Shown here one piece after another: positions 27,680-37,646 of a stretch of DNA of 60,064 nucleotides. A model generated the notes under the pieces. That model saw nothing but the letters and a program-made list of their open reading frames with translations. It did not search any database and was not told the origin of the DNA. The stretch spans positions 1-60,064 of the forward strand of contig JAAZKE010000008.1 in NCBI GenBank assembly GCA_012799995.1, given 5' to 3'. Origin of the DNA: Chloroflexota bacterium. Its GTDB lineage: Bacteria > Chloroflexota > Anaerolineae > Anaerolineales > Anaerolineaceae. The position numbers were made by a program, and so were the translations under genes. Positions within the stretch are counted from its first letter, which is position 1. Every line of letters begins with the position of its first letter.

Positions 27680-27706
27680 TTGACAAGTTTGGTTATATGG
27701 TAAAAT
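27680..27706 (+). promoter_or_regulatory. Promoter of the riboswitch-controlled ABC/nitrogenase-like operon
   Basis: A perfect TTGACA (27680-27685) and TAAAAT (27701-27706) are separated by 15 nt; a slightly weaker -10 choice (AATATG, 27704) gives 18. It lies just upstream of the cobalamin riboswitch, in the right place to produce its leader transcript. Confidence 0.6.
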
Positions 27707-27730
27707 ATGAAAAACTGAATAAGTCAAATA

Positions 27731-27915
27731 TGATTAAGGTAGTAGATAACATTTAAAAGGGAATTCGGTGAGAATCCGAAGCAGTCTTATCTCTACTGTA
27801 AATGATGACGAACGAACAATATGCCATTGCGAAAGCGAGAAGGCGTTCGGGAGGATGACTCATAAGCCAGGATACCTGCCTTGATCCGCTTGCTTACAAT
27901 TCTTAGGTGGAGAAC
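27731..27915 (+). promoter_or_regulatory. Cobalamin riboswitch
   Basis: The conserved B12 box is AAGCCAGGATACCTGCC at 27864-27880, differing from the usual AGCCAGGAGACCTGCC by one base. Upstream is the other hallmark block, AAAAGGGAATTCGGTGAGAA followed by TCCGAAGCAGT (27756-27785), and CTACTGTAAATGATGACG in the expected place between them. The spacing and order match the cobalamin riboswitch family. A terminator at 27972 supplies the expression platform, so B12 should switch the operon off; that direction is known for the family and inferred here. Confidence 0.93.
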
Positions 27916-27971
27916 TTGAAGCACCCTTAGACATTGCATTGTCTAATATGGTTTTTGGGCGTATAAAAACT

Positions 27972-34858: not shown

Positions 34859-36036
34859 AAACCGCCCAAGAATGCAAACTGTTCGGAGCTTATCAGGCAC
34901 TGGCCGGCATTGAAGATGCTGTGGTTTTGCTGCACTCTGTCGTCGGTTGCAATTTTGGCACCCTGTCGTTTCATGTACCCAACCGCATGCAGGATATTCG
35001 ACAAGCATGCACTGTGATCAGTGATAACGAAATTATCAATGGCGGCGAAAAGTCTTTGAAACTCGCACTGGACTCCATGCTCGAATTATATAAACCCACC
35101 GCAATTTTTGTAATTAGCGGCTGCGTCAGTGAAATGATTGGAGACGACATTCAAGCGGTGATTGAACCATACAGTCAAGATCAATGTATTATTCGCTATG
35201 TTGAATCGGCAGGCTTTCGTGGAGACTTTTGTGACGGCTATGAGCATGCCTTGCTCTCACTGGCCGATCTGATGGAACCTTATAAAGTGTCCGCAAAGCC
35301 TGTGATTAACATATTGGGAGTCAGCACAGATGATTACAGAGCAGCAGCTGATAAAAAAGAGCTTCAAAAACTCTTGGGTGATCAGGCTGAATTGGGTACA
35401 GTTTTTTCTCAATGCACCCTGGATGAAGTACGAAAAGCTCCTTGTGCTGGCCTTAATCTTGTGTTGGGGCATGGTATAGATTTGGCACGAGAAATGAAAT
35501 ATCGATTTGGCATTCCATATGAACTGATCGATTATCCCTTCGGCATTGAAGGCCTTAAGGAAATATGCGAAATTTTTGATCGACGCTTCAACATCAATTT
35601 TTCGGAGGATCTTGCGCGGATTAAAAATGAAATCTCTCTCGGACTTGAGCCAATATACACTTATTTACAGGCGTGCTACGGCATGCCTGCAGCGGTGATT
35701 GGGCGCGATGCGAGAGCAAAGGGGTTGCGACGCTTTTTAGAAAAAGAATTGGGCATGGAAGTTGTGCGCTTTGCCCGACGGGAAGAAGTTGGGGATCTGG
35801 AAGAATTTTATATGACCGTTCGAAATAGCGAAGTTGCTGTATTGTTCGGATCGTCTTTCGAACAGGACCTGGCAGATGAACTTAAAATCCCCTTGGTTCG
35901 CTTTGATTATCCTATATTTGATGAAGTCTGTATCACTGGACGTTCTTTCATCGGTACATCGGGAGTTCTTTGTTTGATAGAGGATATACTTAATGCCGTG
36001 ATGCGTAACAGGGTATTAAAAGGGGCGTTATACTAA
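34855..36036 (+). CDS. Nitrogenase-like catalytic component, K-type (beta) subunit
   Basis: A 393-residue nitrogenase component 1 protein, beginning at ATG 34855 in a 4-nt overlap with the previous stop (GGAGATG upstream); an in-frame start at 34813 is not used. Three cysteines could be P-cluster-type ligands: Cys32 in HSVVGC, Cys52 in QACTVISDNE, and Cys90 in VISGCVSEMIGDD, the last closely matching the C-x-x-E-x-I-G-D-D block of nitrogenases. The C-terminal IPLVRFDYPIFDEV and FIGTSGVLCLIEDIL match NifK/NifN. LNLVLGHG replaces LNLVHC, so no cofactor cysteine is visible there. With the D-like protein it should form an alpha2beta2 catalytic core. Confidence 0.85.
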   Translation: MKTAQECKLFGAYQALAGIEDAVVLLHSVVGCNFGTLSFHVPNRMQDIRQACTVISDNEIINGGEKSLKLALDSMLELYKPTAIFVISGCVSEMIGDDIQAVIEPYSQDQCIIRYVESAGFRGDFCDGYEHALLSLADLMEPYKVSAKPVINILGVSTDDYRAAADKKELQKLLGDQAELGTVFSQCTLDEVRKAPCAGLNLVLGHGIDLAREMKYRFGIPYELIDYPFGIEGLKEICEIFDRRFNINFSEDLARIKNEISLGLEPIYTYLQACYGMPAAVIGRDARAKGLRRFLEKELGMEVVRFARREEVGDLEEFYMTVRNSEVAVLFGSSFEQDLADELKIPLVRFDYPIFDEVCITGRSFIGTSGVLCLIEDILNAVMRNRVLKGALY

Positions 36037-36828
36037 GTGAAAAAAATATGTATTTACGGCAAAGGAGGCATCGGTAAATCCACCACCGTGTCCAATGTTG
36101 CAGCGGCAATGGCGGAAAAGGGATTGTCTGTAGCCGTGGTTGGTTGTGATCCCAAGGCTGACTCAACTCGAAGTCTTACCGGTAAAAAAATCCCCACGGT
36201 GTTAGACTCGCTACGCAGTGGACAGACAGAGTGTCTGGCTTTTCAAGGCTATTTGGATATTTTATGTATTGAGGCGGGAGGGCCTGAACCCGGGACTGGT
36301 TGTGCTGGCAGAGGAATCATTGCCGCGATACGGGAAATACGCGAAAGAGAACTGTTGAATAAAATCGACGCAGTAATATATGATGTATTAGGTGATGTCG
36401 TATGCGGTGGTTTCAGCATGCCGCTTCGTGAAGGTGTTGCAGATGAGATCTATCTGGTGACCACAGCCGACTTTATGTCTCTCTACGCTGCGAACAATAT
36501 TTGTCGCGGAATCCGAAAGTATGCCCAAAGAGGTTCCATTCGCCTTGCCGGCGTCATTTACAATGCCAGAAGTAGTATGGACAATCCTGGCTTGGTTGAA
36601 GATTTTGCCCATAAAATTGGAACACAAGTAATCGGCAAACTACCGATGAGTGAGCTAATCGCCAAATCAGAGCTTGCGCGGCAGACTGTTTTGGAAAGAT
36701 ATCCCAAAAGCGAAGTAAGCAACTGTTTTCGCCGGTTGTCAGATATGATTATGAAAGGGAAAGGACGTTGCATACCCACCCCCCTTACCGACGAAGAGGT
36801 GGAAAAATTATGCCGCCACCAGTTTTAA
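36037..36828 (+). CDS. Nitrogenase iron-protein-like reductase (NifH/CfbC type)
   Basis: A 263-residue P-loop ATPase. Walker A is GKGGIGKST at residues 8-16, and Cys89 (GGPEPGTGCAGRG) and Cys123 (GDVVCGGFSMPLR) are the two cysteines per subunit that ligate the dimer-bridging [4Fe-4S] cluster in NifH. Arg92 corresponds to the residue ADP-ribosylated in NifH. It should be a homodimer passing electrons, coupled to ATP hydrolysis, to the D/K-like pair. The gene starts with GTG directly after the previous stop, with AGGGG about 12 nt upstream. Sequence features are close to group IV proteins such as CfbC. Confidence 0.93.
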   Translation: MKKICIYGKGGIGKSTTVSNVAAAMAEKGLSVAVVGCDPKADSTRSLTGKKIPTVLDSLRSGQTECLAFQGYLDILCIEAGGPEPGTGCAGRGIIAAIREIRERELLNKIDAVIYDVLGDVVCGGFSMPLREGVADEIYLVTTADFMSLYAANNICRGIRKYAQRGSIRLAGVIYNARSSMDNPGLVEDFAHKIGTQVIGKLPMSELIAKSELARQTVLERYPKSEVSNCFRRLSDMIMKGKGRCIPTPLTDEEVEKLCRHQF

Positions 36829-37646
36829 GCGAAGTGAACAGGCATGATTATACCGAAGAGCACCCCTGTTTTAACAACAGGGCTCATTTTCGTTTTGGGC
36901 GAATTCATTTGCCGGTTGCACCCAGATGTAATCTTCAATGTGCCTACTGCAACCGTAGATTTGACTGTCCCAATGAAGCTCGTCCAGGCGTGACATCCAA
37001 GCTTATTTCCCCTTGTGAAGCGGTCGAACGCGTTGAGAAGGCTCTGAAAAAGGATAATCGACTGCGTGTTATCGGCATTGCCGGACCGGGTGAGCCGCTT
37101 TATAACGATGAAACTTACGAAGTCATGCGTTTGTTGTATACTCGTTTCCCTCAACTTAGTTTATGTGTCAGTACGAACGGATTGCTTCTGCCTGAACGCC
37201 TGAAGGACTTAATCATATGCGGTTTGCGTACACTGACAATTACCATTAATACGGTGAGGCTCGCTACGGCCCGGAAAATCTACAGTTCGATTGTTTATAA
37301 CAGGCAATCTCTCTTGATGGATGAAGGATGCGCACGACTGCTTCGGCAGCAGCGTTTAGGGCTTCGGCTTGCCGTTGAAAGCGGCTTGGCCGTCAAGGTC
37401 AATACGGTTCTCATCCCGGGCATTAATGAGACGGAAATCGAAGAAATTTCTAAAATGGCCGCTGATGAGGGGGCTTATATTATGAATATCATGCCGCTGA
37501 TTCCTCAGGCTGAATTTGCCAACATTCCACCTCCCACAGCGATGCTGCTGAAGACTTGCCGTATGGGTGCGGGCAATCATTTGCCTCAGTTTATGCATTG
37601 TAAGCAGTGCCGTGCGGATGCAGTAGGTGTTCCAGGAGAAAGCTAA
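36810..37646 (+). CDS. NifB-like radical SAM protein
   Basis: A 278-residue radical SAM enzyme. The start is ATG 36810 with GAGGTGG 6 nt upstream, overlapping the Fe-protein gene by 19 nt. The SAM cluster motif is CNLQCAYC (Cys40, Cys44, Cys47). The extra ligands seen in NifB are retained: HPC at residues 18-20, Cys53 in FDC followed by NEARPGV, and the C-terminal HCKQCRADAVG (Cys264, Cys267). In NifB these hold the two [4Fe-4S] clusters that are fused with a carbide into NifB-co. It lacks the NifX-like C-terminal domain of some NifB proteins. Its presence in this operon suggests that a NifB-type cluster is made for the adjacent reductase. Confidence 0.9.
   Translation: MPPPVLSEVNRHDYTEEHPCFNNRAHFRFGRIHLPVAPRCNLQCAYCNRRFDCPNEARPGVTSKLISPCEAVERVEKALKKDNRLRVIGIAGPGEPLYNDETYEVMRLLYTRFPQLSLCVSTNGLLLPERLKDLIICGLRTLTITINTVRLATARKIYSSIVYNRQSLLMDEGCARLLRQQRLGLRLAVESGLAVKVNTVLIPGINETEIEEISKMAADEGAYIMNIMPLIPQAEFANIPPPTAMLLKTCRMGAGNHLPQFMHCKQCRADAVGVPGES

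Follow-up and report, generated by a model that had tools for sequence, protein, structure and literature searches.

The window analysed here is the whole of a 60,064-nucleotide stretch (positions 1 to 60,064, contig JAAZKE010000008.1, assembly GCA_012799995.1) from a member of the Anaerolineaceae in the phylum Chloroflexota. On one strand it carries a cobalamin riboswitch, then the genes of an ATP-binding cassette (ABC) importer, and then four genes that we call D, K, H and B. D and K are nitrogenase component 1 proteins, H is an ATP-dependent reductase and B is a NifB-type radical SAM protein. Here we describe this gene set and its recurrence in other genomes, and tentatively propose that it imports and reductively processes a corrinoid or similar tetrapyrrole when B12 is scarce.

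Gene content and control region

The features are collected in Table 1. A preliminary description of this DNA had listed a DppBCDF-like importer with its binding protein, followed by D, K, H and a NifB-like gene on one strand, and family searches bear this list out. The starts of permease 1, permease 2, K and B are our own choice and lie downstream of the start of the longest open reading frame (ORF). The solute-binding protein (SBP) matches 10 NCBIfam families and falls under the cut-off of every one. A NikABCDE nickel importer was considered for the transporter and rejected, with 97 bits for nikA against a cut-off of 393 and 181 bits for nikB against 447.

Table 1. Features of the riboswitch-led gene set in the window.
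Feature	Coordinates	Strand	Basis and remarks
Putative promoter, TTGACA – 15 nt – TAAAAT	27680..27706	+	read from the letters
Cobalamin riboswitch aptamer, RF00174	27720..27897	+	96.2 bits, gathering score 31.5, model positions 1-189 of 189
7-bp hairpin with U-run, between aptamer and first gene	27972..27998	+	terminator scan, folding
Opp/Nik-type permease 1	28023..29018	+	family match; ATG at 28023 behind GGGAGGA chosen; longest ORF from 27939
Opp/Nik-type permease 2	about 29008..29835	+	family match; GTG start chosen; longest ORF from 28972
ATPase 1, OppD-like, oligo_HPY C-terminus	29866..30789	+	family match
ATPase 2, NikE/OppF-like	30779..31471	+	family match
Solute-binding protein, family 5 (SBP_bac_5)	31495..33159	+	family match
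Strong hairpin without U-run, between SBP and D	33161..33218	+	-33.9 kcal/mol, z -5.8
D, nitrogenase component 1	33359..34858	+	family match, tree, alignment
K, nitrogenase component 1	34855..36036	+	ATG at 34855 chosen; longest ORF from 34813
H, NifH/CfbC-family ATP-dependent reductase	36037..36828	+	family match
B, NifB-type radical SAM protein without NifX domain	36810..37646	+	ATG at 36810 chosen; longest ORF from 36768

The riboswitch of the preliminary description is a full-length match to its family, one of three cobalamin riboswitches in the 2.3 Mb host genome. The promoter and terminator named there can likewise be found in the letters. However, neither scan of the window gave an excess over shuffled sequence (promoters, 23 against 24.1; terminators, 10 against 10.2), and the putative promoter is absent from the list of the consensus scan, which demands a spacer of 16-18 nt. 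The 81-nt stretch spanning the hairpin with the U-run has a folding z of -3.2, and this hairpin is likely the attenuator of the riboswitch. The genes had also been described as mostly overlapping, which holds inside each half of the set but not between the SBP gene and D, where 199 nt and a long hairpin intervene. That second hairpin could be an RNA-processing or stability element. Moreover, the GC content of the transporter genes is 0.406 compared with 0.466 for D, K, H and B.

D and K form a separate branch of nitrogenase-like proteins

In a tree that holds no Cfb, BchYZ, true methylthio-alkane reductase (Mar) or true isethionate reductase (Isr) sequences, and whose Mar-like references are unverified proteins from loci L037, L039 and L043, D and K each form a clade of their own (support 100/99) outside the Nif, Mar-like and BchN/B rows. 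Family scores served to compare Cfb, BchN/B and BchZ as well. The preliminary description had taken the locus for an unassigned nitrogenase-like reductase under B12 control, a reading that a place of D and K among CfbCD, Mar or Bch would have contradicted. Against the references used they stand apart, and the reading is supported.

Several memberships were rejected by score. As a group I-III nitrogenase D reaches at best 87.6 bits in NCBIfam (nifE, cut-off 505) and lacks both Cys275 and His442. D and K score 60 bits to DPOR_BchB, whose cut-off is 490, and BchN/B are separate in the tree. For COR, K scores 50.9 bits to BchZ against 529, and BchY is not among the listed matches. CfbCD fails at 53 bits to methan_mark_13 against 268, and a K subunit is present here whereas CfbCD has none.

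The cysteines of D are much reduced. C48, a P-cluster cysteine, is invariant in 100/100 D proteins, and C171 is invariant among those aligned. The position of Cys62 is Asn in 97/100, as judged from the ungapped spacing from C48 and from the alignment, and that of Cys154 is Pro in 92/100. In a profile alignment R249 falls on NifD Cys275; this residue is Arg in 95/100, the rest being F, F, K, Q and H and none Cys, and the alignment to Mar-like D, gapped around K248/R249, has no Cys there either. At the position of NifD His442 the window protein has Met. The AlphaFold model of D has a mean confidence (pLDDT) of 85.9. K retains three P-cluster-type cysteines (10/10) and, among the profiles compared, scores best against Mar-like K. 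H exceeds the cut-off of PRK13230, 'nitrogenase reductase-like' (356 bits, cut-off 350), and stays below those of nifH (353 against 394) and CfbC (333 against 402). In B, HPC, CxxxCxxC, C67 and CxxCRADA are invariant in 9/9 proteins, where HPC, CxxxCxxC and CxxCRADA are what we take to be the NifB motifs. Against NifB structures B reaches 241 bits for three chains and 274 for 6y1x, and its 265 bits to TIGR01290 nifB are under the cut-off of 343.65.

Of the regions that supplied the Mar-like references, L043 and L039 lie on a Chloroflexota plasmid (Candidatus Chlorohelix), where an O-acetylhomoserine sulfhydrylase and an SBP_5 importer separate two Mar-like B-H-D-K sets. L037, on a plasmid of Treponema saccharophilum, has MetY, CysK, a NifB-like protein, NifX and H followed by two D/K pairs, with three cysteines in each D and an NMT1-type importer. 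One MetY is annotated in each of L037 and L043.

The D locus recurs with a B12 riboswitch

A protein search returned 135 relatives of D at E <= 1e-5. We compared 13 D loci: that of the window, ten from a scan of named genomes, L025, and L033 from the same genus as the genome carrying L016. The ten scan loci come from two Flavonifractor (one being F. plautii ATCC 29863), two Oscillospiraceae, Parablautia, Eubacteriales, a Clostridia metagenome-assembled genome (MAG) and two Phascolarctobacterium MAGs with three loci between them. The carriers are therefore the window's host and a few anaerobes, mostly clostridial.

In 9/13 loci (the window and L009-L016, that of L010 being cut by the contig end) D is preceded on its own strand by a B12 riboswitch, and so in 8/12 when the window is excluded. 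The arrangement of riboswitch and D thus recurs. None was found upstream of D in L025, nor in L017 and L033, for both of which the available upstream DNA is short, and none occurs in 10 kb at L018 or in 14.7 kb of L035. The independent cases are fewer than nine, since the Flavonifractor-like loci L009, L010 and L015 are closely related. Set against three such riboswitches in the 2.3 Mb of the host genome, eight in the 12 other loci make the pairing of riboswitch and D more than chance.

The gene is rare. Within the order of F. plautii it occurs in 2/394 genomes, F. plautii being one of them; in the genus of L009's genome in 2/20, again including F. plautii; and in the genus of L016's genome in 3/7. 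Two of 151 genomes from the window's own order matched D, namely the host and one weak match to a different nitrogenase-like protein. Given this rarity, the host probably acquired its D set by transfer.

K adjoins D in 12/13 loci, L009 having no K beside D in a stretch without runs of N. B adjoins in 10/13 (the window, L009, L011-L013, L015-L018 and L033); L014 and L025 have none next to D-K, and in L010 it would lie beyond the contig end. H adjoins in 7/13 (the window, L009 in a short form, L010-L013 and L015). It is not adjacent in L014, L016, L017, L018, L025 or L033, although the rest of these genomes was not searched for H or B, and in L018 an H gene lies 3 kb past B. Some copies are possibly decayed: L009 at 2091-4967 (no K, short H), L016 at 11467-12687 (K split) and L018 at 10062-11492 (D split), all free of runs of N.

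Importers change around a constant reductase

The transporters beside D are of more than one kind. An Opp importer of one subfamily is shared by the window, L011 and L012, and a second Opp subfamily occurs in L013 and L017, whose SBPs are 46% identical to each other and 18-23% to the first. FecCD-type transporters, of the B12/siderophore/heme transporter class, accompany L014, L016 and L025, with the riboswitch seen in the first two only. L018 has a PF01497 binding protein together with CobN. No importer intervenes in L009, L010 and L015, where the riboswitch directly precedes D; in L015 a divergent riboswitch also precedes five divergent SBP genes, which belong with the first Opp subfamily. 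In L012 and L013 the ATPase gene runs up to or into D (with longest-ORF starts), which links import to the reductase as the preliminary description had supposed. Importers of two superfamilies, one reductase and one signal together suggest that the reductase acts on an imported substrate. Moreover, TonB receptors precede the gene set in L016, L017 and L018, pointing to a solute that is large or scarce.

Corrinoid- or chelatase-specific genes around the D set are few. CbiZ (PF01955) lies 0.8 kb beyond B on the opposite strand in L009, and the CobN of L018 scores above its cut-off inside an island with further CobN and CbiZ. FecCD- or PF01497-type genes occur in five loci (L009, L014, L016, L018 and L025), and a PF01497 protein is encoded 1.2 kb before the riboswitch, on the opposite strand, in L011. 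MetY, sought with the MetY of L037 and L043 as queries, gave no match in the window or in any of the 12 other D loci (3.9-22 kb each). Among the importer genes of the D loci that were run against Pfam there was no SsuA/TauA-type binding protein.

In a Phascolarctobacterium MAG, L018, L034 and L035 make up an island of CobN-like chelatases, chelatase I/D-like AAA proteins, CbiZ and several PF01497-like and TonB proteins, with a second H and two component-1 proteins beside a FecCD permease. In L024 (8065-11328, from the host's genus) and L038 (4964-8236, a plasmid of Sporomusa termitida), H and two short component-1 proteins stand beside binding-protein importers, that of L038 having a PF01497 binding protein; NifB was not seen in these two stretches.

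In the window itself the D set is followed at 38443-44186 by what reads as ATP synthase-like genes, for beta, epsilon, two small membrane proteins, a, c, a 266-aa b-type subunit and then a 557-aa ORF, an order that we take to resemble N-type (Na+) ATPases.

B12 and methionine genes of the carrier genomes

CbiD is encoded in 7/11 carriers, CobQ/CbiP in 7/11 and CobS in 8/11. The host genome, which is 98.8% complete, has none of the three and is very likely a corrinoid auxotroph, likely relying on imported corrinoids. Each of the host's remaining two B12 riboswitches stands before genes for a PF01497 binding protein, a FecCD-type permease and an ATPase, and one of these sets includes CobA over its cut-off; the permeases and binding proteins of both sets pass no B12-specific cut-off.

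MetE was found in 0/10 carrier genomes. MetH is matched in nine of the ten, none over the full-length cut-off: six score 458-510 bits (G151, G153, G156-G159), the host has it in split pieces, G154 and G155 are partial and G152 has none. MetY exceeds its cut-off in 9/11 carriers compared with 9/14 control genomes.

A possible B12-starvation module

The reading that we tentatively prefer, while giving it less than even odds, is that of a module for B12 starvation. When B12 is scarce the riboswitch would release expression of the operon, and a large compound, probably a corrinoid or another metal-tetrapyrrole, would enter through the importer. The D-K-H enzyme, which likely depends on the NifB homologue of its own operon for maturation, would reduce this compound so that the corrin or the metal could be reused. 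H may hydrolyse ATP and deliver electrons to a [4Fe-4S] cluster whose ligands would be one Cys from D and three from K; the substrate may occupy the nitrogenase cofactor site near the invariant C171, and B may supply a further cluster with ligands unlike those of Nif and Mar. What speaks for such a module is the riboswitch in 9/13 loci, the exchange of importers around a constant D-K core, the TonB receptors, the CbiZ and CobN neighbours, the riboswitch-led sets of the host and its likely reliance on imported corrinoids, and the lack of a MetY match in the 12 other D loci, when the Mar-like regions L037 and L043 each have one. We also count in its favour that the reduced cysteine set of D leaves no known cofactor ligand.

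A number of observations weigh against this proposal. B looks like a working NifB, as all of its motif cysteines are kept in 9/9 proteins, and we know of no tetrapyrrole-reducing relative that employs NifB and of no Opp-type transporter for corrinoids. The 7/11 carriers that bear CbiD can probably make B12 themselves. In L014 and L025, D and K have no H or B next to them. The transport genes are equivocal as well: the best-scoring family of the TonB receptors is a siderophore one in L016 and L017 and TonB-B12, with scores far under its cut-off, in L018 and L035, and none of the scored FecCD-type parts of L014, L016 and L025 reaches a B12-specific cut-off. The L014 permease is at 271.5 bits to F420-0 against 271.2 to BtuC, and the binding proteins of L025 and L016 fit the ferrichrome and heme types best, respectively. 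B12 control in common could, moreover, bring uptake genes beside an unrelated B12-sparing enzyme. Finally, the hairpin between SBP and D may be taken as a mild warning about transcript linkage of the two halves.

The most serious alternative, which we consider doubtful, is a B12-sparing route to methionine: an organosulfur compound would be imported, D, K, H and B would release methanethiol from it by breaking its C-S bond, and MetY would turn this into methionine when the B12-dependent MetH stalls. Such a route would suit carriers without MetE, with incomplete MetH matches and mostly with MetY. Mar and Isr, for both of which the gene of a radical SAM partner is reported, have C-S bonds as their targets (PMC12552129, PMC11423573), and Isr has a similar cysteine pattern. 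Among the profiles compared K scores best against Mar-like K, and Candidatus Chlorohelix has an SBP_5 importer beside two Mar-like sets and MetY. However, MetY lies in none of the 12 other D loci, though some span only 4-15 kb, and is common in the control genomes anyway; D lacks the Cys that binds the Fe8S9C cluster in Mar; and TonB receptors and CobN/CbiZ neighbours would be unexpected. In short, the locus context favours corrinoid or tetrapyrrole processing; C-S cleavage is favoured by the NifB-like nature of B, by the lack of MetE and by a cysteine pattern like that of Isr. The preliminary description had thought of a replaced B12-dependent step, which is not favoured over its rivals given CbiZ and CobN near L009 and L018, FecCD or PF01497 genes near five loci and the absence of a MetY match from the DNA of the 12 other loci.

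It is unlikely that the set serves metal acquisition, with a cobalt (or nickel or iron) chelate imported and the metal freed by reduction. The siderophore-type TonB receptors of L016 and L017 and the ferrichrome-type binding protein of L025 would accord with this, the carriers with CbiD would need cobalt, and there is a precedent in Nik-like importers linked to B12 riboswitches (PMC2667541). Yet releasing metal with a reductase of several parts that consumes ATP is expensive. Metal import, another suggestion of the preliminary description, also fits the window's host poorly, because cobalt would not feed B12 synthesis in a genome without CbiD, CobQ/CbiP and CobS.

An Isr-like reductase of isethionate or another sulfonate, with incidental B12 regulation, seems improbable. 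The single Cys in D and three in K, the missing Cys275/His442 equivalents and Pro at Cys154 are as reported for Isr, but the position of Cys62 is Asn rather than the Arg of Isr, B is NifB-like whereas IsrB is reported as closest to BciD, and the importer genes run against Pfam include no SsuA/TauA-type binding protein. Chance adjacency of a B12-regulated peptide importer and an independent nitrogenase-like operon, which the 199-nt gap, the hairpin and the GC difference would allow, has very little left in its favour and is already contradicted by the comparative loci, where the riboswitch stands directly before D in L009, L010 and L015, an ATPase gene touches D in L012 and L013, and the riboswitch recurs in 9/13.

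Nitrogenase-like enzymes have a handful of known jobs, and D and K here are a distinct branch; corrinoid reduction, if true, would be a new job for the family. The recurring B12 signal limits the possible substrate or benefit and thus makes the function directly testable. A functional-looking NifB beside an enzyme without known cluster ligands poses a chemical puzzle of its own. If the set processes corrinoids, competition for B12 in the gut would gain a further step; if it spares B12, it would be a MetE-free way to methionine. On the sequence evidence we regard it as rather a long shot that the set is a fourth tetrapyrrole-reducing nitrogenase relative and the first with NifB, an ATP-driven corrinoid reductase, turned on by gut anaerobes in B12 shortage, whose iron-sulfur-carbide cluster is held unlike that of Nif or Mar. 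Were there such a corrinoid reductase, the carriers could rebuild or exploit B12-type molecules that are of no use to other cells.

Comparison with known systems

The methylthio-alkane reductase MarBHDK of Rhodospirillum rubrum (PDB 9fmg, 9d9u) has six P-cluster cysteines and an Fe8S9C cluster held by MarD Cys270 (PMC12552129). Like Mar, the window set has a NifB-type partner with its motif cysteines (9/9), adjacent to D in 10/13 loci. D, in contrast, retains a single P-cluster cysteine and lacks Cys at the Cys270 position, the gene order differs, no MetY is near, a B12 riboswitch is present, and D and K are in clades separate from the unverified Mar-like references.

The isethionate reductase IsrBHDK of Rhodobacter capsulatus is isethionate-induced and has an Ssu-type importer (PMC11423573). 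It resembles the window set in its one Cys in D and three in K, the lack of Cys275/His442, its radical SAM partner and its linked importer, and differs in having Arg where the window family has Asn at Cys62 and an IsrB that is not NifB-like.

With the FecCD/Btu-type and Nik-like importers preceded by B12 riboswitches the set shares its control element, and the transporters of L014, L016 and L025 are of the same superfamily as BtuCDF. A B12-riboswitch importer with a nitrogenase-like reductase and NifB did not occur among the literature matches listed, which leave subscription journals mostly uncovered, and we know of none described.

DPOR, COR and CfbCD share the architecture of the window enzyme, and a D subunit free of cofactor ligands is reported for DPOR and COR too. 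They differ in that the window proteins score far below the cut-offs of their families, in that BchN/BchB fall outside the D and K clades and in that, to our knowledge, they have neither a NifB partner nor an importer. The B12 context of the window set points to a substrate class related to theirs.

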